Both the position numbers and the translations under genes were made by a program. 64,000 bases of DNA from Brevibacterium yomogidense (GTDB lineage: Bacteria; Actinomycetota; Actinomycetes; Actinomycetales; Brevibacteriaceae): assembly GCF_016107685.1 (NCBI RefSeq), contig NZ_JABASY010000006.1:186001-250000 (forward strand), read 5' to 3'. Under the pieces are notes generated by a model. That model was not told the origin of the DNA and did not search any database. It saw nothing but the letters and a program-made list of their open reading frames with translations. Below are positions 5,031 through 16,747 of this stretch, one piece after another. Position 1 is the first letter of the stretch. Each line of letters begins with the position of its first letter.

Positions 5031-6113
5031 GTGGCTCTTACTATCGGAATCGTCGGACTGCCCAACGTCGGCAAGTCGACCATGTTCAATGCGCTGACCA
5101 AGAATCAGGTGCTCGCCGCGAACTACCCCTTCGCGACCATCGAGCCGAATGTGGGCGTCGTCCCGCTGCCTGACCCCCGACTGAACCGGTTGGCGGAGGT
5201 GTTCGGTTCGGAGAAGATCCTCCCGGCGACCGTCAGCTTCGTCGACATCGCGGGGATCGTCCGCGGCGCTTCGGAAGGGGAGGGGCTCGGCAACCAGTTC
5301 CTCGCGAACATCCGCGAGGCGGATGCGATCTGCCAGGTGATCCGCGCGTTCTCCGATGAGGACGTCGTGCACGTCGACGGCAAGGTGTCGCCGTCGGACG
5401 ACATCGACACGATCAACACGGAGCTGATCCTCGCGGATCTCCAGACGATCGAGAAGGCTCAGCCGCGGATCGAGAAGGAGGTCAAGCAGAAGAAGACCGA
5501 TGCTGCTGTCCTCGACGCGATGACCAAGGCGCAGACGATCCTCGAAGAGGGCCGGACGCTCTTCCAGGCGATGGGCGACGGGTTCGACGCCGAACCGCTG
5601 GAGGACCTCCAGCTCATGACGACGAAGCCGTTCCTCTACGTCTTCAACGTCGACGACGACATCCTGGAGGACGAGGCGAAGAAGGACGAACTGCGGTCTC
5701 TCGTCGCCCCGATCGAGGCGATCTTCCTCGACGCGAAGTTCGAGTCCGAACTCGCGGAGCTTGACGAGGCCGAGGCCGCAGAGATGCTCGAGATGAGCGG
5801 CCAGGACGAGGCCGGGCTGGACCAGCTGGCTCGCGTGGGCTTCGACACCCTGGGACTGCAGACGTACCTCACTGCGGGACCGAAGGAATCGCGGGCGTGG
5901 ACGGTCCCGAAGGGTGCGACCGCTCCCGAGGCCGCGGGCGTCATCCACACCGACTTCCAGAAGGGCTTCATCAAGGCCGAGGTCGTGTCCTTCGCGGATC
6001 TGGACGAGCTGGGTTCCATGGCTGCGGCCAAGGCTGCCGGCAAGGTGCGGATGGAGGGCAAGGACTACATCATGGTCGATGGCGACGTGGTCGAATTCAG
6101 GTTCAATGTCTAA
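5031..6113 (+). CDS. ychF: Redox-regulated ATPase/GTPase YchF
   Basis: 360 residues, full length for the family. Starts with GTG at 5031. The G1 loop GLPNVGKST is at residues 9-17, the DIAGIVRGASEGEGLGNQFL switch region follows near residue 68, and the C-terminal TGS domain carries the signature IHTDFQKGFI. YchF binds ribosomes and hydrolyses ATP; it is nearly universal. The last codons before the stop (GAA TTC AGG TTC AAT GTC TAA) use AGG and AAT, unlike the GC-rich codons of the rest of the gene. This fits replacement of the gene end by an integrated element, because a GC-rich synonymous version of the same codons reappears at 12612-12636. Confidence 0.95.
   Translation: MALTIGIVGLPNVGKSTMFNALTKNQVLAANYPFATIEPNVGVVPLPDPRLNRLAEVFGSEKILPATVSFVDIAGIVRGASEGEGLGNQFLANIREADAICQVIRAFSDEDVVHVDGKVSPSDDIDTINTELILADLQTIEKAQPRIEKEVKQKKTDAAVLDAMTKAQTILEEGRTLFQAMGDGFDAEPLEDLQLMTTKPFLYVFNVDDDILEDEAKKDELRSLVAPIEAIFLDAKFESELAELDEAEAAEMLEMSGQDEAGLDQLARVGFDTLGLQTYLTAGPKESRAWTVPKGATAPEAAGVIHTDFQKGFIKAEVVSFADLDELGSMAAAKAAGKVRMEGKDYIMVDGDVVEFRFNV
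6089..6113 (+). other. Putative attL: ychF 3' end, left border of island
   Basis: These 25 bases encode the end of YchF (Val-Glu-Phe-Arg-Phe-Asn-Val-stop). The same eight codons recur at 12612-12636. 20 of 25 bases are identical and all five differences are synonymous third- or first-position changes (GAA/GAG, AGG/CGG, TTC/TTT, AAT/AAC, TAA/TAG). That is what integration into a gene's 3' end leaves when the element brings its own copy of the gene tail. Confidence 0.75.
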
Positions 6114-7011
6114 ATAGCCGCTTTGACCAGGGATTTTATCTTCTCGGTCTTCGGTTGGGGCTGATAGGCGAGTTCCGATCGACTAACAGTTGCTAAGCGT
6201 TTATCCTGCTGACCTGGGATTTTGATCGTCCCCTGCGGAGCTCCCGCCAGGGCCGATTCTCTTTTGTGCGGTGCGGTTGCGTCTCTGGCAAGCCGCCTCG
6301 GCTGGCCCATTCTGGGGCGGGTGCGAGTCGTTCGACGTGCGATGTCTCGGCAGGCCCGCTGACTCAAAAATCAGTCTGACTCAATAATCGGAACTCGACG
6401 GGGATCGATCGTTGCAGGTGCTCGCGTCACCGGTTGCCTAGTTACCGGCATCTCGCCGCTCGAACACGATCAATGCGCTCACCGATGCAACCACTCACCA
6501 CGTTGCCATCGCTATGCCTACCGGTGCCAGGTCGAGGAGACCTATGGTCCGATAGTCATCGAGGAGCTGGATGCCGGCCGATCGAGAAAGCGCTGCGGAA
6601 AGAGGAAGAGCGCCAGTCTAGAGATGGCGAGTCTGAGTACGAGCGGCACCACTATCACGGCAGTCACGGTGAAGCTGCTGGCCAAGACGGTGGCTGAGGC
6701 CCGCTCGACCAGCGCGTGCGCATCCCTCTCGAAGCCAATGACTGTCCAATGTCGGGACCTTGTGAGATGGTTCCCCAGTGAGTATCGACCACGACGTCAA
6801 GAACTGGCCAATGCGGCTTGGCGAGACTTATTGCTCCGGATTAGTTGCCCAGGCGTGGCCACCAATATTGTCCGCGGATGCGGGACGCGGTTCGGGGCTA
6901 GCCGTCGAGGCGACTCTGTAGTGCTTCTATGTCGCCCTCCGGCACGGAGTCTGGTTGGGACGGTGCGGACCGCACTTATGCTCGATACGACAATCAATGC
7001 AACGGAGAGTC
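6114..7011. other. Left island segment without a convincing gene
   Basis: About 900 bp with lower GC than the flanks. It contains the first 107-bp direct repeat (6285-6391). Open frames here are short, lack ribosome sites and have no recognisable domains. On the minus strand around 6560-6760 a frame without a good start codes for a hydrophobic stretch and could be a remnant of a membrane protein. The promoter of the CBASS operon should lie in its last 200 bases, but I could not assign -35/-10 boxes with confidence. Confidence 0.5.
6285..6391 (+). repeat. 107-bp direct repeat, copy A (left of CBASS)
   Basis: Pairs without gaps with 8613-8719; I count 13 mismatches in 107 (about 88% identity). 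The last part, from GCTGACTCAAAAATC onward for 27 bases, is identical and contains two TGACTCA boxes. The first 21 bases are also identical. The two copies bracket the CBASS operon. Confidence 0.9.
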
Positions 7012-7899
7012 ATGGTTACTGAAGAGAAATTGGCTGGGTGGACAGGTCCCTCGAGTCCGACCGAGAAAGACAAACAGGAGCGCACCGAGCGAATGATTCG
7101 AGAGGCGATCGACGCTCATGAGGGATTCGATGGCTACCGAAGCGACTTCGCCATATACGCGAAAGGCTCCTACGCCAACAACACGAACGTAAAGTCAGAC
7201 AGCGACGTCGACATCGTCATCGAGTGCACAGATGTTTGCTACTGGCAGGAGCACGATCCTGCCAAGGGTGGACACCCTGCAGGGAGTCCTTACACGGGTC
7301 CATGGACCCCGGAGAAGCTTAGGGCGGAGATCGCCGCAGCGCTTGAGAAGAAGTTCCCCGGGGCTGTCACCGCGGGGTCGACGGCGTTCGAGGTTGATGC
7401 CAGTTCGGCACGCGTCAACGCCGACGTGGTGCCCTCTTTCACGTACAAGCTCTACTTCTCAGATGGCAGCTATCGCCAGGGTACGAAGGTCTTCAAAAAA
7501 GACGGCACGGCCATCGTCAACTATCCGAAGCTCCAGCTTGAGCGCGGCAAGGAAAAGAACGTGCGTACAAATGGTCTCTACAAGAAAACTGTGCGCATCT
7601 TCAAGCGACTGGAGAACGAGCTCGTCGCGAAGGGCCTGACCGAGGAAGTTCCGTCCTACCTTCTCGAGTGCCTTATATACAACTGCCCCGAAGAGAACTT
7701 CTCGCGAGACACGTGGCGTGGGACGATGCGCGGATGCCTGGCAAAGATCTTCAACTCCACCATGGGACCTGAGCCTGACGAGGATCGCTGGATGGAAGCG
7801 AATGGTTCGAAGTTCTTGTTTCACCCTGCTCAGAAGTGGACGAGAGCGCAGGTTCATAAGTTCGCGAGCGACGCCTGGGATTACATGGAGTTCGAATGA
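7012..7899 (+). CDS. CBASS CD-NTase (cGAS/DncV-like nucleotidyltransferase)
   Basis: 295 residues from ATG 7012, which has ACGGAGAG directly upstream; the longer frame from 6955 has no such site. The CD-NTase signature is present: GS at residues 52-53, then D65-V-D67 in KSDSDVDIV, and the third metal-binding Asp at 138 in VNADVVPSF. A C-terminal helical domain follows with NYPKLQLERG and VPSYLLECLIYNCP, typical of SMODS-type enzymes. Such enzymes make a cyclic di- or trinucleotide on phage infection; which nucleotide cannot be read from the sequence. The stop overlaps the next start (ATGA), so the two are translationally coupled. No Cap2 or Cap3 gene is adjacent, so this would be a minimal (type I) CBASS operon. 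Confidence 0.88.
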   Translation: MVTEEKLAGWTGPSSPTEKDKQERTERMIREAIDAHEGFDGYRSDFAIYAKGSYANNTNVKSDSDVDIVIECTDVCYWQEHDPAKGGHPAGSPYTGPWTPEKLRAEIAAALEKKFPGAVTAGSTAFEVDASSARVNADVVPSFTYKLYFSDGSYRQGTKVFKKDGTAIVNYPKLQLERGKEKNVRTNGLYKKTVRIFKRLENELVAKGLTEEVPSYLLECLIYNCPEENFSRDTWRGTMRGCLAKIFNSTMGPEPDEDRWMEANGSKFLFHPAQKWTRAQVHKFASDAWDYMEFE

Positions 7900-8522
7900 T
7901 TAGCGGGATCCTTATTCGAGTGCTCGTGGTAATCGTCTCCGTGGTTTTTGTCGTCGGATCGTGGATTACCACTGGTGCGCCTAACCTGAGCCTGTTCAGC
8001 TTCTTCTCGATCGCTGTTCTCGTGTGCACGATCTTGTTCATCCTGTGGGACCAATGGCTCTGGAAGTCGAAGCTCACCCAAATGATCCCGGGAGTGAGTC
8101 GCAACTTGAGTGGCACCTGGGAAGCCACCCTCGAGTCGTTGTGGATCAATCCCGCGACGAGTTCGTCGCCGCCCGCGAAGACCGTCTACATGGTTATTCG
8201 GCAGACAAGCTCCACCGCGTCTGTCACGCTCATCTCGGATGAATCCAAGTCGAAGTCGTCGCTTGCGCGCGTGGTCAAGGAGGACGGGTCTTGGCTGCTT
8301 CACTACGTCTATACAAATGAGCCTCGTCTCGAGAGCCGAGGGCGAAGCCCAATCCACCACGGGTCAGCGGTGCTTGCTGTGACCGGCTCGCCGGCGAAGC
8401 GCCTAGAGGGTCGTTACTGGACAGACCGTGATTCGAAGGGGCAGCTCAAGCTGATGAAGCGATCGAAGACGCTCGCTGAGGACTTCGAGGAAGCTCGTGA
8501 AGCATTGAAGGATAAGGACTAG
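7896..8522 (+). CDS. cap15: Cap15-like CBASS effector (2 TM + beta-barrel)
   Basis: 208 residues, overlapping the CD-NTase stop by four bases. Two membrane helices come first: about residues 5-25 (LIRVLVVIVSVVFVVG) and 33-53 (FSFFSIAVLVCTILFIL). A soluble domain then begins at NLSGTWEATL (about residue 70) and continues with VYMVIRQTSSTASVTLIS, LHYVYTNEP, HHGSAVLAV and LEGRYWTDRDSKGQLKL, alternating strands that match the eight-stranded cyclic-nucleotide-binding barrel of Cap15. Cap15 effectors oligomerise in the membrane on ligand binding and damage it, stopping phage spread. Assignment is by pattern and gene order; I could not run a profile search. Confidence 0.88.
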   Translation: MISGILIRVLVVIVSVVFVVGSWITTGAPNLSLFSFFSIAVLVCTILFILWDQWLWKSKLTQMIPGVSRNLSGTWEATLESLWINPATSSSPPAKTVYMVIRQTSSTASVTLISDESKSKSSLARVVKEDGSWLLHYVYTNEPRLESRGRSPIHHGSAVLAVTGSPAKRLEGRYWTDRDSKGQLKLMKRSKTLAEDFEEAREALKDKD

Positions 8523-8612
8523 CCATGCGCTCGACGTCGTTGTCCGGATCTCTTTCGTGGTGGTCCCGGTGCGCCATCCGTGCGAGTTCGAAGCGATTCT
8601 GCATGAGCGTAG

Positions 8613-8719
8613 CTGGCAAGCCGCCTCGGCTGGTCAGCTCCGGGGCGGGTTCGAGTCGTTCGGCGCGCGATCTCTCGGCAGGTGCGCTGACTCAAAAATC
8701 AGTCTGACTCAAAAGTCGG
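8613..8719 (+). repeat. 107-bp direct repeat, copy B (right of CBASS)
   Basis: Gap-free partner of 6285-6391. It begins 90 bp after the effector stop codon and ends 20 bp before the stop codon of the minus-strand gene at 8740. A GGGTTCGAGTC segment resembles a tRNA T-loop, but no tRNA can be folded around it. Confidence 0.9.
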
Positions 8720-8739
8720 TTGCCTCAACAACGCGGGGT

Positions 8740-9627
8740 TCACTCTGGCAGGTCTCGTTCTGCCAGAGTGCGAGTGATCTCGTCCCACTGGGAGCTCGCG
8801 ATCAGTTGGCGGTGCCGGTGCATGGCGGTCTGCCATGCCCCGAACTCTGTTGGGAGCTCACGCCACTTGATGCCAGTGCGGGTCTTGTAGAGAGCCGCGT
8901 CGACGATCGTGCGTACGTCAGTGCGTGGCCGCCCGCGGCGGGGGCTCTCCTCTGAATGAACGATGTGCTTGATCCAGCTCCATTGCTCATCTGTAAGTCG
9001 TTGATAGTCAGACTGGAGGCCCTCGATGTCGCTGCTGTCGTCACCATCCTTCGCCTGGTCATCGATTCGCACGGCTTTGACCACGCCGCGGATGACAGCA
9101 CATTCGGTGCATTGGACGGTTGGTTCAACGTTGCGAGGGAAGTGCCCGGCCAAGGTCTCGACGTGCTGGCAGGTCAGTTCTACGCGCCAGGTGGCGCTGC
9201 GGTCGACGTGCAATGAGGGTGGGTATAGGGGCTGTCGGAGCTCATCGCGCTGAGCCGGCGAAAGTGGCGGGAACGGACAGCACAGGTGGCAGTGCTCCAC
9301 CCTGTTGTTCTCGAGACGCCAAACACCCATGTTGCATGCCTTGTGTTCTGCTCGGAACTCGGCATTGTCGGCGTCGATCAGCGCGAGGCTCTCTTCATCA
9401 GTACCCAGAGCTGGCTCACCGAGAAGGGCGCGCCCGCACGCGCGGCATGGTTCGCCTGCTGCATAGGCTCCGTACGTCAGCTGGCGGTCGTTGCCTGCCC
9501 GTTCCCTCCGCTTCGCCTCCTCTGCTGGGGCCCACGATTCCGAGAGCAGTGCCGTGCTGCGTGATGTGTGCAGGACGCGGGGGAGAGCTGTCGAGCTCCC
9601 GTCGGGGATCTGCTGCGAATCGGGCAT
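8740..9627 (-). CDS. Cys-rich zinc-binding-like protein fused to IS5-type transposase N-domain (DUF4096)
   Basis: 295 residues from ATG 9627, which has a perfect AAGGAG at the right distance; the frame stays open further upstream but with shadow-like composition. Residues 60-130 carry clustered Cys/His (CRACG, EHKAC, HCHLCC) suggesting one or two zinc sites. The last 90 residues (from LTDEQWSWIKHIV through GRPRTDVRTIVDAALYKTRTGIKWRELP) match the DUF4096 N-terminal domain of IS5-family transposases, but no DDE catalytic domain follows, so it is not a working transposase. It may be a domesticated DNA-binding protein. It is divergent from an XRE regulator. Function unknown. Confidence 0.75.
   Translation of the reverse strand: MPDSQQIPDGSSTALPRVLHTSRSTALLSESWAPAEEAKRRERAGNDRQLTYGAYAAGEPCRACGRALLGEPALGTDEESLALIDADNAEFRAEHKACNMGVWRLENNRVEHCHLCCPFPPLSPAQRDELRQPLYPPSLHVDRSATWRVELTCQHVETLAGHFPRNVEPTVQCTECAVIRGVVKAVRIDDQAKDGDDSSDIEGLQSDYQRLTDEQWSWIKHIVHSEESPRRGRPRTDVRTIVDAALYKTRTGIKWRELPTEFGAWQTAMHRHRQLIASSQWDEITRTLAERDLPE
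8741..8770 (-). terminator. Hairpin overlapping the 3' end of the DUF4096-protein gene
   Basis: Arms CACTCTGGCAG (8741-8751) and CTGCCAGAGTG (8760-8770) pair perfectly over 11 bp with an 8-base loop. The structure includes the stop codon of the minus-strand gene. No T-run follows. It may act as a terminator or stabilise the transcript end. Confidence 0.5.
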
Positions 9628-9707
9628 CGTCACGCTCTCCTTCGAGGTCTGATGCGGCCGCAGTGCGAGTCGTGCGCGACCCACCTCGACAGCAACTGGA
9701 AGCGATA

Positions 9708-9720
9708 ACTTCCTGGAAGT
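9708..9720. promoter_or_regulatory. Palindrome abutting the XRE start codon
   Basis: ACTTCC-T-GGAAGT is a perfect 13-base palindrome one base before the ATG at 9722. A second GGAAG...CTTCC pair overlaps it on the left. Its place in the divergent intergenic region makes it a good operator candidate for the XRE protein. Confidence 0.5.
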
Positions 9721-9721
9721 C

Positions 9722-9964
9722 ATGACTACCAAACCTGAGGCTGGATGTGTGACAGAACCGCTGAAAAAGGTGCTTGGAGCGCAGGTGCGCGACCTGCGTC
9801 TTGCGCGCCACCTGTCGCAGGAAGGTCTTGCCGAAGAACTCGAAGTGTCGACTCGGTACCTTGTCGGCATCGAGCGTGGCGAGCGCAACCTCACCCTGGA
9901 CTCCGTCGATGCCCTGGCGGAGCAACTCGGCGTTGAGGCCCATGAATTGGTCGTCCCTCGGTGA
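9722..9964 (+). CDS. XRE/Cro-family helix-turn-helix regulator
   Basis: 80 residues, essentially one HTH_3 domain: VRDLRLARHLSQEGLAEELEVSTRYLVGIERGERNLTLDSVDALAEQL. The start at ATG 9722 has no Shine-Dalgarno, so the transcript may be leaderless; GTG 9749 is an alternative. It is divergent from the DUF4096-type gene (94 bp between starts) and probably controls that promoter and its own through the palindrome at 9708-9720. In defence islands such small regulators often keep the cargo silent; that role here is inference. Confidence 0.85.
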   Translation: MTTKPEAGCVTEPLKKVLGAQVRDLRLARHLSQEGLAEELEVSTRYLVGIERGERNLTLDSVDALAEQLGVEAHELVVPR

Positions 9965-10226
9965 CGTTCGGCGCTCGAGTCACTCTTGCGCGGCGAACTG
10001 GATGGGCATCATGGATGCCTGGCTAAGCAGACACGACTTCGGGCGAGATGAAAGAATGTCAGTAATGCCGTCTACTTTCAGTGTTGGTTAGGCGGCATCA
10101 CCAGTACCAGCTTCGTCGCCGCGCCGCTCGGCTCCGCCGTGTCAGTGCCAGCGTCGCTGGTGGCTGTCGTTGCGGAGCATGGGCGGGCGCTACTGCGCCT
10201 GCGGTGTGGCGTGGGATCATGGACCC

Positions 10227-10412
10227 ATGGCTACTGATGACATCGAGCGCGCGCCGAAGGTCATCCGCTGTGAGCACTGGTCTGAGGAGCTTGGTCGCTT
10301 CGGCGGCTGGCACCACCACGAGGGTCCTCACGCGTGCGACTGGGGGAACCACGATGGCGCGTGTCCGTACTGGGTCAGCGTTGGCGGAAGGCCGAACCTT
10401 GAATCTCAGTAG
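10227..10412 (+). CDS. Small His/Cys-rich hypothetical protein
   Basis: 61 residues from ATG 10227. Unusually rich in His, Trp and Cys (GWHHHEGPHACDWGNHDGACPYW), which suggests a metal site. No family recognised and the ribosome site is weak, so it may not be expressed. It lies inside the island between the XRE gene and the DUF6119-like gene, with no close operon partner. Confidence 0.4.
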   Translation: MATDDIERAPKVIRCEHWSEELGRFGGWHHHEGPHACDWGNHDGACPYWVSVGGRPNLESQ

Positions 10413-10582
10413 AGGGAGTCGTGCAGCCATGGCAAGCGGTCCAGTGTCGTCTGCTGGCTCTCCTCGCGACTCCCATTAACCATGTCGTAGCCGCGAGCCT
10501 TGCCCGAGACCTTGAATCGGCGTGGCTCGCCGTTGATTCGTTAGCTTGTCCGACCGTCCAACTTCTGGGCAGGCATCCGCCG

Positions 10583-12220
10583 TTATTGCTCCAAAGCCGG
10601 AGGCGGGGGCGCGATCGTAGCTACGCGAACCTTCACATCAAGGTAGCGAAGCGCGTCGTACTGCTTGACCAGGTTCACCTTCGTGAAGGTAAACAGGGTG
10701 TCGACCGTGATCGGATCCTCCTTGCCAATTGCGAGGACCACTTCCCTGAGCTCGGCCTTGTCGACCACTCCCTTGCTCTCCTCAGCAATGCGTTTCGTCC
10801 ATGCATTGCGTGCACTCTCATCTCGTGCGAGGGCGTCAGTAGACACAAGTCCTTGCGCGAGAAGGTGGCTGAGGTCAGCCGACTGCCGCCCGCGCTTCAC
10901 ATGGATCAGGGTGCCCGGAGCGACGAACACGTCGCAGGGTTCGATCCCGCCACGCGAATGAAGCGGAGTTGTGATCAGCTTCCTGTCCAAGCAGTACCCC
11001 GACAGGGCCTCGGCGGCGTGCTTGTTGTAGGCATCCTCGTACTCCTCACCCCACGGAGGCATGGTTACTGAGGCAGGCTCAGACAGAATCTCACGAACGC
11101 GGTCGTCGATTCGGGCAAGGTACTGGTCATCCATCCGGTACCAGTTTCCATCGTGCAGACAGAATCGTTGGCCGTCTTCCTCGACCTCGAATGCGAGCCA
11201 CCGCCGCAGTGGCACAGGCGTGGAAACAAGCGTATGGACCTGGGGATCTGCCTCGCTGTGCAGCTCGATCTTCACGGATTTCAGACGGTCGAGGATCGCC
11301 TCTCTTGGTGTATCCGCGAGCCACTCGATCACGTCGCTCGTGTCGGGCGCTTGGTCAAAGACCCGCCGTTTGCGATCCCCCAAGCCGGTGACTTTGACGC
11401 TCATCATCGGGCCGTAGGCATCAAGACGCTCGTGCGGCCAGGACACCCCGAGGCGCTTGCCCGCATCTGACTTCAAGGCGTCAACGAGCTTCTCGTCGAG
11501 CGCAGGTACTCGGCTGTCCTTGGCCTTGAGCGCGACGAGTTGCTCAAGGCTCTCCAAGCCTGTTCGGACGGGCTGACGCAACAGATCATCGAGAACCTTG
11601 AGGTCTGCGAGCAAAGGTCCTGCTGACTTTGCGAGTGGTGCTTTCAGAGAGTCCGCCGCGCTCAGCTGCACGACCTTGTCTCCAACACTGAGGTCACTGA
11701 TCCGCGCCTTCGCCTCAATCCTGCTGACGACCTCGCCGTAGCCGTCTACTCCGAGATCACGAATCGTGCTTCCGTTCGGCATCGAACTCCGATCCACACG
11801 AGCTCTGTGGTCCAAGATGGTCTTCGTCAGCGACTTGATTTCCGAGGGAAGCGCAGACCGCGCAACGATGCGCGAGCCGAAGCCGAAGTCAATCTGCTCC
11901 GAATCCAAGAAGTGGAACCCGGTGCCCCAGGTGATGGCCCAGATTACGTCTCCAGTGTCCTGGAGCAATAGGGCAGCGCCGGGGGAGCGGTTCTTGAGGT
12001 CAACGGTTTGGCCGGTGAGGAGCTTCAGATCCGCCGACCACTTGGCCTTGGTCGTGATGGAGCCGGAAACAAGGCGCGCGGGTCGATCTTCTACCTGGAG
12101 GTCGGTGACGTTGAAGTTGTCATCTGTCTCTCGCCGAGACTCGGTCAGCGCTGTCTCAAACGTGCTTCCGTCAAGCATCCTGTAGAGCGTTGTCCGCTTC
12201 GTCGCAACAATCTGCACCAT
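10583..12220 (-). CDS. TIGR04141/DUF6119-like sporadically distributed protein
   Basis: 545 residues from ATG 12220; the 53 codons upstream in frame look non-coding. The N-terminus (TLYRMLDGSTFETALTE), the internal DVIWAITWGTGFHFL and FGSRIVARSALP, and the C-terminal DVFVAPGTLIHVKRGRQSADLSHLLAQGLVS are the pattern I associate with the family named TIGR04141 (DUF6119), which occurs patchily in bacteria and tends to sit in accessory or defence regions. Its biochemical function is not known to me. It is a lone gene on the minus strand within the island, and its codon use is less GC-rich than in flanking genes. Family call is from memory, not a search. Confidence 0.65.
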   Translation of the reverse strand: MVQIVATKRTTLYRMLDGSTFETALTESRRETDDNFNVTDLQVEDRPARLVSGSITTKAKWSADLKLLTGQTVDLKNRSPGAALLLQDTGDVIWAITWGTGFHFLDSEQIDFGFGSRIVARSALPSEIKSLTKTILDHRARVDRSSMPNGSTIRDLGVDGYGEVVSRIEAKARISDLSVGDKVVQLSAADSLKAPLAKSAGPLLADLKVLDDLLRQPVRTGLESLEQLVALKAKDSRVPALDEKLVDALKSDAGKRLGVSWPHERLDAYGPMMSVKVTGLGDRKRRVFDQAPDTSDVIEWLADTPREAILDRLKSVKIELHSEADPQVHTLVSTPVPLRRWLAFEVEEDGQRFCLHDGNWYRMDDQYLARIDDRVREILSEPASVTMPPWGEEYEDAYNKHAAEALSGYCLDRKLITTPLHSRGGIEPCDVFVAPGTLIHVKRGRQSADLSHLLAQGLVSTDALARDESARNAWTKRIAEESKGVVDKAELREVVLAIGKEDPITVDTLFTFTKVNLVKQYDALRYLDVKVRVATIAPPPPALEQ

Positions 12221-12603
12221 AGCTCTTGGTAGCACGGGTTGTGTTGCCGTAGGTGCTGGCCGCGCGAGTCGAGACCCATAAGTTATTCGTCGGTCATGGA
12301 GGATTGCCGAGCAGTCCCGAGCGTTATGCGACTCTGGCTGCTCTTGGCGCTGTGTCAGTGAGACGCCTGACGCGCGCACTTGGCCAAAGGACCCAGGGGA
12401 GCGGCGCGAGCTCCCCGGCCCGTCCGATCCAGCGTCTATCAGTCCTCAGGATGACCTCGACGAGCCCCGGATGCTAATCTGGTCTCTGGTGCTCCAACTG
12501 GCGCAGGTCTCCCTCTGCGTAGTTGCTCCTCGCACTAAAGACCCAGGTCAGACTGCATTTGTTAGCCAGGGAACAGCCTTAGCACCAAAGGTTCCGAAAG
12601 CAT

Positions 12604-12623
12604 CGGAACTCGGTCGAGTTCCG
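12604..12623. promoter_or_regulatory. 20-base palindrome at the right island border
   Basis: CGGAACTCG-GT-CGAGTTCCG has perfect 9-base arms. Its right arm overlaps the start of the duplicated ychF tail and it is 47 bp upstream of higB. It could be a recombinase core-site dyad or a HigA operator; the sequence alone does not decide. Confidence 0.4.
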
Positions 12624-12636
12624 GTTTAACGTCTAG
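12612..12636 (+). other. Putative attR: second copy of the ychF 3' end
   Basis: Encodes Val-Glu-Phe-Arg-Phe-Asn-Val-TAG with GC-rich codons (GTC GAG TTC CGG TTT AAC GTC). No reading frame runs into it, so it is not part of a gene. It is the natural partner of 6089-6113 and marks the right edge of the island. The GC-rich codons suggest that this copy is the original chromosomal end of ychF. Confidence 0.75.
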
Positions 12637-12669: not shown

Positions 12670-12951
12670 GTGATCAGATCGTTTGGCAGCAAGGACACCG
12701 AACGGCTGTGGCGTCGTGAACGCGTGCGCTCGATCGATCCGAGGATCCATCGGGTGGCGCTGCGCAAGCTTCGTCAGGTGGGGTCCGCGGGGTTGCTCGA
12801 TGACCTCCGCGTCCCACCCGGTAACCGGCTCGAGGCGCTGAAGGGCGATCGGGCCGGGCAGCACAGCATCAGGATCAACGACCAGTGGCGGATCTGCTTC
12901 GTGTGGACCGACGCAGGACCGGAGGAGGTGGAGATCGTTGACTACCATTGA
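12670..12951 (+). CDS. higB: HigB/RelE-type toxin (mRNA endonuclease)
   Basis: 93 residues starting at GTG 12670. The sequence MIRSFGSKDTERLWRRE, HRVALRKLRQVGSAGLLDDL, PPGNRLEALKGDRAGQHSIRIN and WRICFVWTDAG is the classic host-inhibition-of-growth HigB pattern. HigB toxins cleave mRNA on the ribosome. The toxin gene precedes the antitoxin and overlaps it by 14 bases, the usual hig order. It starts 33 bp after the attR-like site, just outside the island. Confidence 0.92.
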   Translation: MIRSFGSKDTERLWRRERVRSIDPRIHRVALRKLRQVGSAGLLDDLRVPPGNRLEALKGDRAGQHSIRINDQWRICFVWTDAGPEEVEIVDYH

Positions 12952-13240
12952 CAAGATCGATCCGATCCACCCCGGAGAGGTCCTCATGGAGGACTTCATC
13001 GAGGGGTTCGGCATCACGCAGAACAAGCTCGCCGTGTCGATCGGCGTCCCGCCGCGCCGGATCAACGAGATCGTGCACGGCAAGCGGGGGATCACGGCGG
13101 ACACCGCCCTGCGCCTCGCGAAGTACTTCGGCACCTCGGCGGAGTTCTGGATCAATCTGCAGAGCCACTATGAGCTCGACCGCGCGGAGGATCTAGCGGG
13201 GGAGCAGATCGCCTCGATCACGCCGCTGAACGTCGCATGA
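12938..13240 (+). CDS. higA: HigA-type antitoxin (XRE family)
   Basis: 100 residues starting at TTG 12938, preceded by GGAGGAGGTGGAG inside higB. IHPGEVLMEDFIEGFGITQNKLAVSIGVPPRRINEIVHGKRGITADTALRLAKYFGTSAEFWINLQ is the HigA helix-turn-helix. It neutralises HigB and represses the operon. Its stop overlaps the ATG of the following kinase gene (ATGA), so three genes are translationally coupled. Confidence 0.93.
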   Translation: MTTIDKIDPIHPGEVLMEDFIEGFGITQNKLAVSIGVPPRRINEIVHGKRGITADTALRLAKYFGTSAEFWINLQSHYELDRAEDLAGEQIASITPLNVA

Positions 13241-14798: not shown

Positions 14799-15482
14799 CT
14801 AACGGGCCAACGCCATGCGGATCGGCGTGCTGCCGCGGCCGTACTCGATGGTCTTGCGAACCGTCGACGCAATGTCCAGAGCGTCGACGATCGTCTGAGC
14901 GACGTCGCTGCGGGAGATGTTGCGCTCACCGTTCGGCCCCGGCCCCCGACGGTCGCCGCCGAACTCTTCGATCGGCCCCAACCCGATGGTGCCTACGGGC
15001 TCGTCGTCGGTGAGGAAGCCGGGACCGAGGACCGTCCACTCGAGGCCTGAGCTCCGCAGGTGGGCATCCGCCTCGGTCTTCGCCTGGACGTAGGGGTAGA
15101 AGCCGTGGTCCTGGGGAAACCCGTGGTCGGGGGACGAACCCTGGTACGACACCATGATGTATCGCGTGACACTCGCGCGTTCCGCCGCGTCCATCGAGCG
15201 GATCGCGGCGTCGCGATCGACGGCGAAGGTGAACTCACGTCCGGCCCCGCCCGCACCGGCGGACCACACGACCGCGTCATGTTCGCTGATGACTTCGGCC
15301 AGTTGGGCAGTCGTCGCCTCCTGCAGGTCCAGCACCAGCGGCGCTGCGCCGGTCGCTTCGATCGCGGCAACCTGATCCGCGGAGCGGATCGTAGCTGTCA
15401 CCGCATACCCCGAGTCGACGAGCTTTCGGTTGGTGAGCAGGGCGACTTTGCCGTGGCCGCCGAAAACGATGATCTTGTGCAT
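14799..15482 (-). CDS. NAD(P)H-binding (NmrA/atypical SDR) oxidoreductase
   Basis: 227 residues from ATG 15482, preceded by CAAGAAAG. The N-terminal dinucleotide-binding loop is IIVFGGHGKVALL (residues 3-15), and the strand pattern with VWSAGAGG and a C-terminal DVAQTIVDALD fits the YwnB/NmrA-like atypical short-chain dehydrogenases. It follows the old yellow enzyme gene by about 30 bp on the same strand and is probably co-transcribed. Substrate unknown; together the pair suggests handling of reactive electrophiles. Confidence 0.85.
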   Translation of the reverse strand: MHKIIVFGGHGKVALLTNRKLVDSGYAVTATIRSADQVAAIEATGAAPLVLDLQEATTAQLAEVISEHDAVVWSAGAGGAGREFTFAVDRDAAIRSMDAAERASVTRYIMVSYQGSSPDHGFPQDHGFYPYVQAKTEADAHLRSSGLEWTVLGPGFLTDDEPVGTIGLGPIEEFGGDRRGPGPNGERNISRSDVAQTIVDALDIASTVRKTIEYGRGSTPIRMALAR

Positions 15483-15512
15483 GAAGTCCAACTTTCTTGA
15501 GGCCTGAGGGAA

Positions 15513-16622
15513 TCAGAGCGCGTACGCGTACTGGTCGATGAATCGGGGACTGGTGCCCAGTTCCAGAGCAGCGTCGTTCGCCCAGGAGGGGTTGCGCAGC
15601 AGTGGACGCCCGAGGAAGATCGCATCGGCCTTCTCATGAGCGATGAGTCCATTCGCCTGCTCGGGAGTGCTGATGCGACCCACTGCCGCGGTGAGAACGC
15701 CGCTCTCGGCCCGGACCGCGGCCGCATTGCGGGTCTGGTAGTCCTCGGCATGTGGGATCGGGACGACGTCGATACCGCCTGAGGAGCAATCGATGAGGTC
15801 GACTCCCCGTTGCGCCGCCCGCCTGGCGAGTTCCACTGTCTGGGGGAGTGTCCAGGCTTCGCGGAAGTCGCCGACGTTCTCCTCGACCCAGTCGGTGGTC
15901 GAGACGCGCAGGAAGACCGGTTTATCGACGGGCCACACCGCGCGGACCGCGTCGATCACCTCGAGTACGATGCGGGCGCGGTTTTCCGGTGATCCCCCGT
16001 ACTCGTCAGTCCGCTCGTTCGCGATGGGGGAGAGGAAGGAATGCAACAGGTAGCCGTGAGCTGCGTGGATCTCAATGACGTCGAACCCGGCGGCTTCCGC
16101 TCGCTTGGTCGCTTCCGCGAAAGCCTGGACGACCTCTGCGATTTCAGTGCGCGTGAGCTCATGCGGGACTGGGGACCCGGGGAACGCCGTTGCTGACGGG
16201 GACACAGGCAACCAGCTGTAGTCCTCTTCGCCTTCCGGGCTTTCTGCGTCTGCGGAGCCGAAGCGGGCCCAGGGCCGATGGCCGGATGCTTTGCGGCCCG
16301 CGTGCGCGAGCTGGATTCCCGGGACCGCGCCCCCGTCCCGAATGCCCTGCGCGATCCGGGCGAAGCCGCCGATCTGACCGTCCGCCCAGATGCCGAGGTC
16401 ATAGGGGGAGATACGGCCTTCGGGGGTGATGCCGGTCGCCTCCACCATCACCAAGCCGAGGCCGCCGGCTGCCCGCGCCGTGTAGTGGGCGTAATGAAAG
16501 TCGTTCGGCTTGCCGGCCTCGCCGGACTGCGGGTCCGCTGTGTACGTGCACATCGGCGACATCCAGACACGATTGGGAATCTCCACCCCACGGATCTGGA
16601 TCGGGTCGAACAGGGTTGTCAC
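15513..16622 (-). CDS. Old yellow enzyme family NADH:flavin oxidoreductase (YqjM type)
   Basis: 369 residues. FMN-binding TIM barrel with the YqjM-class features: Cys25 in SPMCTY, His186 and His189 in EIHAAHGY with Tyr191, NERTDEYGGSPENRARI, and the C-terminal FLGRPLLRNPSWAND. These enzymes reduce activated C=C bonds such as enones, quinones or maleimides with NADPH and are often induced by electrophile stress. First gene of a two-gene operon that diverges from an ArsR-type regulator across a shared operator region. Confidence 0.93.
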   Translation of the reverse strand: MTTLFDPIQIRGVEIPNRVWMSPMCTYTADPQSGEAGKPNDFHYAHYTARAAGGLGLVMVEATGITPEGRISPYDLGIWADGQIGGFARIAQGIRDGGAVPGIQLAHAGRKASGHRPWARFGSADAESPEGEEDYSWLPVSPSATAFPGSPVPHELTRTEIAEVVQAFAEATKRAEAAGFDVIEIHAAHGYLLHSFLSPIANERTDEYGGSPENRARIVLEVIDAVRAVWPVDKPVFLRVSTTDWVEENVGDFREAWTLPQTVELARRAAQRGVDLIDCSSGGIDVVPIPHAEDYQTRNAAAVRAESGVLTAAVGRISTPEQANGLIAHEKADAIFLGRPLLRNPSWANDAALELGTSPRFIDQYAYAL

Positions 16623-16643
16623 AGTCGGATCTCCACTCGCTAC

Positions 16644-16665
16644 TTGTACGGAGGTTCTCGTACAA
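16644..16665. promoter_or_regulatory. ArsR-type operator candidate
   Basis: TTGTAC (16644-16649) and GTACAA (16660-16665) form a 22-base inverted repeat in the OYE promoter. Further GTAC boxes occur at about 16677 and 16687. The site lies between the divergent regulator and the oxidoreductase operon. Confidence 0.6.
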
Positions 16666-16747
16666 CGATGGTGAGCGTACTACAAGGTACGATGAAGGTG
16701 GTACTTCGCGGCGAGCGGTAGCATCGCCTGACCATCGAAAGGATCAC

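Follow-up and report, generated by a model that had tools for sequence, protein, structure and literature searches.

Controller (C) proteins of Type II restriction-modification (R-M) systems act through twin operators on their own promoter, activating it first and repressing it later (PMC12707154), and in Mycoplasma a member of the same family, HsdC, stands ahead of a Type I hsd operon (PMC5282649). RptR, in Gammaproteobacteria, is a small regulator of an island carrying Type I R-M and other embedded defence, and its TAGCTA sites lie in three direct repeats (PMC12255303). Among mobile elements, the Brevibacterium ICE BreLI (96-100 kb) targets the 3' end of a ribonucleotide reductase gene, where its insertion produces a duplicated core (PMC6579920), and a pneumococcal prophage is located between dnaN and ychF, i.e., upstream of ychF and at a different site from the one considered here (PMC6375853). 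Here we describe a locus in a 64,000-nucleotide stretch of Brevibacterium yomogidense DNA (henceforth the window), where a small XRE gene and a divergent gene for a Cys/His-rich protein, P0001, share an island at the 3' end of ychF. We consider it probable that the two genes make up the control module of a group of integrase-less ychF islands, with a controller-like XRE and P0001 as a DNA-binding accessory.

The XRE gene (plus strand) encodes an HTH_3 protein (Pfam) and stands back-to-back with the P0001 gene, as an earlier note on this DNA had described; the 80 residues given there are most likely 71, read from GTG 9749 (9749..9964). Of 14 copies compared, L005, L010 and L013 have a stop after seven codons in the frame from ATG 9722, and L008, L010 and L016 have ATC or ATA in place of this ATG, on which grounds this start was rejected; every one of the 14 has an open frame from GTG 9749, which is very probably the true start. 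A dN/dS of 0.11 points to purifying selection on XRE (this value and those for P0001 below are pairwise means over related sequences, in which the window's own branch is not isolated). Its closest PDB match is C.AhdI (E 1.8e-7), followed by other R-M controller chains at E 2e-5, and its top PADLOC model is Control_protein (1.1e-13).

Between the two genes lies a perfect 13-bp palindrome, ACTTCCTGGAAGT (9708-9720), which the earlier note had correctly recognized and which has a single exact copy in the window. It proved to be the overlap, and so the centre, of two 16-bp palindromes set in tandem 17 bp apart, GGAAGCGATAACTTCC (9698..9713) and GGAAGTCATGACTACC (9715..9730), in the arrangement GGAAGCGATAACTTCC-T-GGAAGTCATGACTACC. 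With XRE very probably starting at GTG 9749, 18 nt beyond the end of these palindromes, the contact with the start codon that had been proposed is not supported. Across ten copies, 29 of the 33 positions of the palindrome region are invariant, versus 37 of 70 in the remaining intergenic region (p = 4e-4, an optimistic value, as the ten sequences are related by descent). The tandem palindromes are present in the relatives examined, within each element at this place only, and a separate tandem-palindrome site of this form belongs to the second XRE gene of L043 (61% identical). We regard them as a putative double operator, most likely of the controller type, upstream of the XRE gene. A scan of the element for sigma-70-type promoters gave matches no more numerous than in shuffles.

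Much like C.AhdI and C.Esp1396I from Type II R-M systems, XRE is thus a small HTH_3 protein with twin palindromes upstream and a divergent second gene, i.e., it combines relation to solved C proteins with a double palindromic operator ahead of its own gene. It departs from the Type II C proteins in that it goes with Type I hsdMSR, has P0001 and not a methyltransferase as divergent partner, and uses palindromes that differ in sequence from the AGTC-type C-box. With HsdC of the Mollicutes it shares the position of a C-protein homologue within a Type I hsd operon; HsdC, however, has short GTGTTA direct repeats, whereas XRE has 16-bp palindromes, is actinobacterial, travels in a mobile ychF island and is paired with P0001. 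RptR is similar as a small regulator of an island of comparable content, and is set apart from XRE by its TAGCTA direct repeats and by the gammaproteobacterial setting in which its association was described. The earlier statement that no described system has this arrangement needs qualification for the regulator, which is not wholly new given that Type I C proteins have been described (HsdC, PMC5282649). The gene directly downstream of XRE is hsdM in 13 of the 15 relatives with a readable right flank, and hsdM is absent in the window. Its place among the genes and the form of its operator make it most likely that XRE works like an R-M controller protein. It is also intact without hsdMSR in the window, in L043 and in L044 (which has a Type IIG-like system on the opposite strand), which means that it must serve more than R-M control, unless the losses are recent.

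The divergent gene (8740..9627, minus strand) encodes the 295-aa P0001, in which ordered Cys/His pairs (CRACG, H..C, HC..CCP, CQH and C..C, approximately residues 56-185) make up a zinc-type domain and residues 211-284 match DUF4096 over the whole domain (E 2.3e-19, the sole Pfam match). For the Cys/His-rich part no match was obtained in Pfam, NCBIfam, PADLOC or PDB, nor were relatives retrieved in a search for viral and phage homologues; the entire protein has no match among PADLOC defence families at E 0.1 and no relatives in PDB. On the NCBIfam model of IS5 transposases (NF033580) it covers positions 3-84 of 258 and scores 67 bits against a cut-off of 110. Thus, as the earlier note had read from the ORF, and as Pfam and NCBIfam now confirm, a Cys/His-rich region is joined to the N-terminal domain of IS5-family transposases and the DDE catalytic domain is absent, so that P0001 is not a full-length transposase of this family. 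The structure prediction that had been suggested for the Cys-rich domain was run with AlphaFold2 (nine close homologues) and reached a mean pLDDT of 41 for P0001, with blocks of 26-35 in the zinc-type domain and only the DUF4096 part near 70-80.

A protein of this make-up could be a decayed or chimeric IS5 fragment, with XRE as an orphan regulator and both genes hitch-hiking. Another ORF of this genome is 42% identical to the DUF4096 part, and the P0001 copies of L011, L013, L014 and L015 are interrupted by later insertions, as such a scenario would have it. However, the frame is open in 9/9 full-length copies, dN/dS is 0.26 overall (0.10 for residues 56-125, 0.29 for the DUF4096 part), and the same fusion of zinc-type domain and DUF4096 is kept in the diverged copy of L043, at 42-43% identity. 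Judging from these comparisons, both parts of P0001 are under purifying selection. The dN/dS values and open frames rule out a decayed IS fragment as the identity of P0001, the very outcome that the earlier note had named as fatal to its proposal, and the hitch-hiking scenario as a whole is largely refuted and extremely improbable. In contrast to IS5 transposases, P0001 carries its DUF4096 behind a zinc-type domain and appears to be selected in its own right. A DNA-binding role of its DUF4096 part is presumed from the family. Our best guess, made with low confidence, is that P0001 is a DNA-binding, defence-associated accessory.

In one scan of genome contigs, relatives of P0001 (82-90% identical) were recovered at 14 loci from nine genera (Propioniciclava, Brevibacterium, Gulosibacter, Microbacterium, Agrococcus, Kocuria, Brachybacterium, Micrococcus and Bowdeniella), and the whole protein is present in only 6 of 396 genomes of the order. 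XRE adjoins P0001 wherever the flank is readable (in L043 with an IS1380-like insertion between them), and all copies examined are island-borne, i.e., the pair does not occur mostly outside islands. Relatives of the zinc domain without DUF4096, most of them with a coiled-coil-like C-terminus (judged by eye), adjoin AbiEi/AbiEii in Rhodococcus plasmids, a ThsB-type TIR gene together with Type I R-M in a Microbacterium plasmid, and Wadjet JetB/JetC. Four other neighbourhoods of such relatives, with one neighbour examined in each, yielded no recognized defence gene.

The pairing also bears on the suggestion that P0001 and XRE are a defence or addiction pair of their own, with P0001 as the effector and XRE as its repressor or antitoxin. 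The strict pairing, the shared operator region, the purifying selection and the persistence of both genes after loss of hsdMSR are what such a pair would display. Yet P0001 has no toxin or nuclease match in PADLOC, Pfam or NCBIfam, the presence of XRE is explained by the downstream hsdM in most copies, and tblastn around the zinc-domain relatives without DUF4096 gave no match to XRE. We therefore consider a self-contained pair, as the earlier note had envisaged it, distinctly improbable; its other proposal, a switch controlling island cargo, agrees with XRE being C-protein-like and having a twin operator ahead of hsdMSR.

The island itself could be delimited in the window. Its insertion site is the 3' end of a GTPase gene (5031..6113, plus strand) that we take from its protein to be ychF, a relative of which occurs in 54/54 good genomes of the genus. 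The element supplies the final 29 bp of ychF (6085..6113, plus strand; GAATTCAGGTTCAATGTCTAA type), which constitute attL, and the same 29-bp end recurs before a second element in L011 and in L043/L018. The element left end (6114..6391, plus strand) is kept beside ychF in nearly all relatives, and the right end (12465..12636, plus strand) contains attR (12608-12636), to which the native 3' end of ychF has been displaced. In five Brevibacterium congeners the site is empty (L081, L093, L096, L103 and L104): ychF runs directly into the sequence found after position 12633 of the window, with HigBA-like genes behind. Given the duplicated ychF end and the empty site, the region from about 6114 to 12633 is, as read from these junctions, a 6.5-kb insert at the 3' end of ychF. 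A HigB-like toxin gene with an XRE antitoxin (12670-13240, plus strand) lies directly downstream of attR and belongs to the native flank in congeners; in genome G037 (locus L107), HigB-like/XRE genes are found between two ychF-end-like copies.

Another B. yomogidense locus, L071, carries a related element of 14.2 kb with the same right flank as in the window. The right junction reads CGGAAC-N8-GTTCCG in L071 and is a perfect CGGAACTC-GGTC-GAGTTCCG in the window, an inverted repeat with the form expected of a tyrosine-recombinase core. The unit is located 3' of ychF in every relative with a readable left flank, and fourfold sites differ far more in ychF (0.51) than in P0001 (0.20), in 36/36 pairs, which shows that the unit moved independently of its neighbour. 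The element thus has a defined attL and attR, a duplicated core and an empty site and no integrase gene of its own, as no integrase or recombinase was recognized among its gene-like ORFs; matches to PF00589 among those listed for the genome fall on contigs C10, C11 and C12 and none on the contig of the window (C15). We infer that the island is mobilized by a recombinase acting in trans. No tRNA that could serve as insertion target is present in the window, and the post-ychF repeat gave no Rfam match up to E 1. BreLI also inserts at the 3' end of a gene and leaves a duplicated core, but in a different gene and at a far larger size than the ychF elements, which span 6.5-14 kb and had no integrase in the copies examined. 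We found no description of defence islands at the 3' end of ychF in actinobacteria in the open-access literature, which is weak evidence of novelty.

Several other loci show variation around ychF. Genomes G047, G025 and G022 have several full or 3'-half ychF copies each, which suggests other elements with longer ychF 3' fragments. At and beyond the right end of the island of L074 (G373; 15419-16735, minus strand), three ychF-end-like copies 0.5-0.75 kb apart resemble a tandem array of small cassettes. A large serine recombinase-like ORF (L043 607-2154, G019; by eye) lies near an altered ychF end and probably belongs to a different element that uses this gene as well.

Comparison with L071, L045 and L074 divides the insert into framework pieces (6114-6391; 8600-10132, with P0001 and XRE; 10134-10472; 12465-12636) and cargo slots. 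Slot 1 is flanked in the window by 113-bp direct repeats, copy A (6279-6391) at the left end and copy B (8607..8719, plus strand), which is 87% identical to it. Each copy holds two TGACTCAAWA iterons with a 17-bp spacing (from 6359 in copy A and from 8687 in copy B), a pattern that had 0 occurrences in 200 mononucleotide shuffles of the window; the iterons and their fixed spacing are found in nearly all relatives. The cargo of slot 1 is a CBASS operon, in which the genes for the cyclase (CD-NTase; 6955..7899, plus strand, ORF start unrefined; PADLOC Cyclase, E 3e-121) and the 2TM effector (7896..8522, plus strand; PADLOC Effector 2TM, E 2.6e-75) overlap. Elsewhere this slot contains a Ser/Thr kinase with an OLD-like ATPase (L004/L071 and L008) or the kinase with a bSEFIR/TIR protein (L007), or is empty (L003, L005, L006, L009, L010 and L044).

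Slot 2, behind XRE, is the site of the R-M genes: L003-L010 and L012-L016 have hsdM there, with hsdS and hsdR after it in loci of sufficient length (Pfam identified the hsd genes of L003 and the hsdM of L004, and the rest were recognized by similarity to these). In L044 the slot is occupied by a Type IIG-like system and in L043 by two Pycsar-type cyclases; it is empty in the window, where a junction at 10132..10134 replaces the approximately 8 kb (hsdM-hsdS-hsdR, XRE-ImmA/DUF4411) of relatives; against both L071 and L045 the left match stops at 10132 and the right match starts at 10134. The right-hand framework module (10134..10472, plus strand) is 85% identical to L071 787-1144 and 84% identical to L045 over 10134-10370. 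A small Cys/His/Trp-rich ORF (10170-10412, plus strand; ..IRCEHWSEELGRFGGWHHHEGPHACDWGNHDGACPYW..) is conserved in this module in L071 and L045. Slot 3 contains a DUF6119 gene (10583..12379, minus strand; PF19614, E 2e-111); its product has no PADLOC match, the slot is empty in L071, and this is possibly an uncharacterized defence gene. Cargo of the R-M, OLD/kinase, bSEFIR or Pycsar type is found in relatives from other genera.

Such a modular layout could also arise without any site-specific element, if ychF were a hotspot whose cargo is swapped by homologous recombination between conserved flanks. The lack of an integrase agrees with this, cargo could be exchanged by homology through the framework modules and the 113-bp direct repeat, and the R-M slot is cleanly missing in the window. 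However, duplicates of the ychF end occur at the right junction and within tandem arrays, an empty site exists, and the ychF gene beside the insert has diverged far more than the insert itself, which makes this a rather unlikely account of the whole; homologous cargo exchange may occur in addition to site-specific insertion.

Site-specific insertion brings up a further role for P0001, that of a mobility factor, i.e., an excisionase- or directionality-like protein that binds the iterons near attL while the recombinase is provided in trans. Nearly all copies have P0001 beside the left end or the repeat of that end, its DUF4096 is transposase-derived, and the strictly spaced iterons of the left end are recognizable, although diverged, even in L043. 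Yet the island of G037 has the same left end, iterons, right end with attR and site but neither P0001 nor XRE, so that the two are not required for insertion there unless they were lost later, and zinc-domain relatives occur away from ychF beside other defence systems. This role is unlikely, and because one element has the same ends without P0001, we consider an integration factor less likely than a defence-associated accessory. The G037 island also suggests that P0001 and XRE are common passengers of the framework that are not indispensable for insertion. Its interior (L107 1347-7090) carries apparently metabolic cargo, sugar-phosphate isomerase-like and enoyl-CoA hydratase-like (by eye).

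Returning to the control module that we favour, XRE would bind the twin palindromes between the genes and regulate its own promoter together with that of the divergent P0001, and in most relatives it would also regulate the co-oriented hsdMSR operon. Such timing could allow an incoming island to become established before restriction grows strong. In the window the hsd operon would have been lost, leaving CBASS and DUF6119 as cargo and XRE in control of itself and P0001. P0001 may bind DNA through its zinc-type domain and IS5 DNA-binding part and be kept for a defence-related role.

A more far-reaching and quite tentative reading is that these elements represent an undescribed family of modular, integrase-less defence islands at ychF, with a C-type switch and with P0001 as a new class of accessory that aids the cargo. 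If true, the P0001 class would help defence cargo to establish, act or move. On this reading the islands would pass from one actinobacterial family to another and enter ychF at its 3' end. They provide a precisely bounded mobile unit, with ends, an empty site, a framework and cargo slots, by which CBASS, Type I R-M, OLD/kinase, bSEFIR and Pycsar-type systems are spread among actinobacterial families. They point to a control module that the islands have in common and to a family of zinc proteins that is also found beside Wadjet, AbiE and ThsB-type TIR genes, and they give direct experimental access to the movement of small islands that lack an integrase and to the safe onset of restriction after arrival in a new host.
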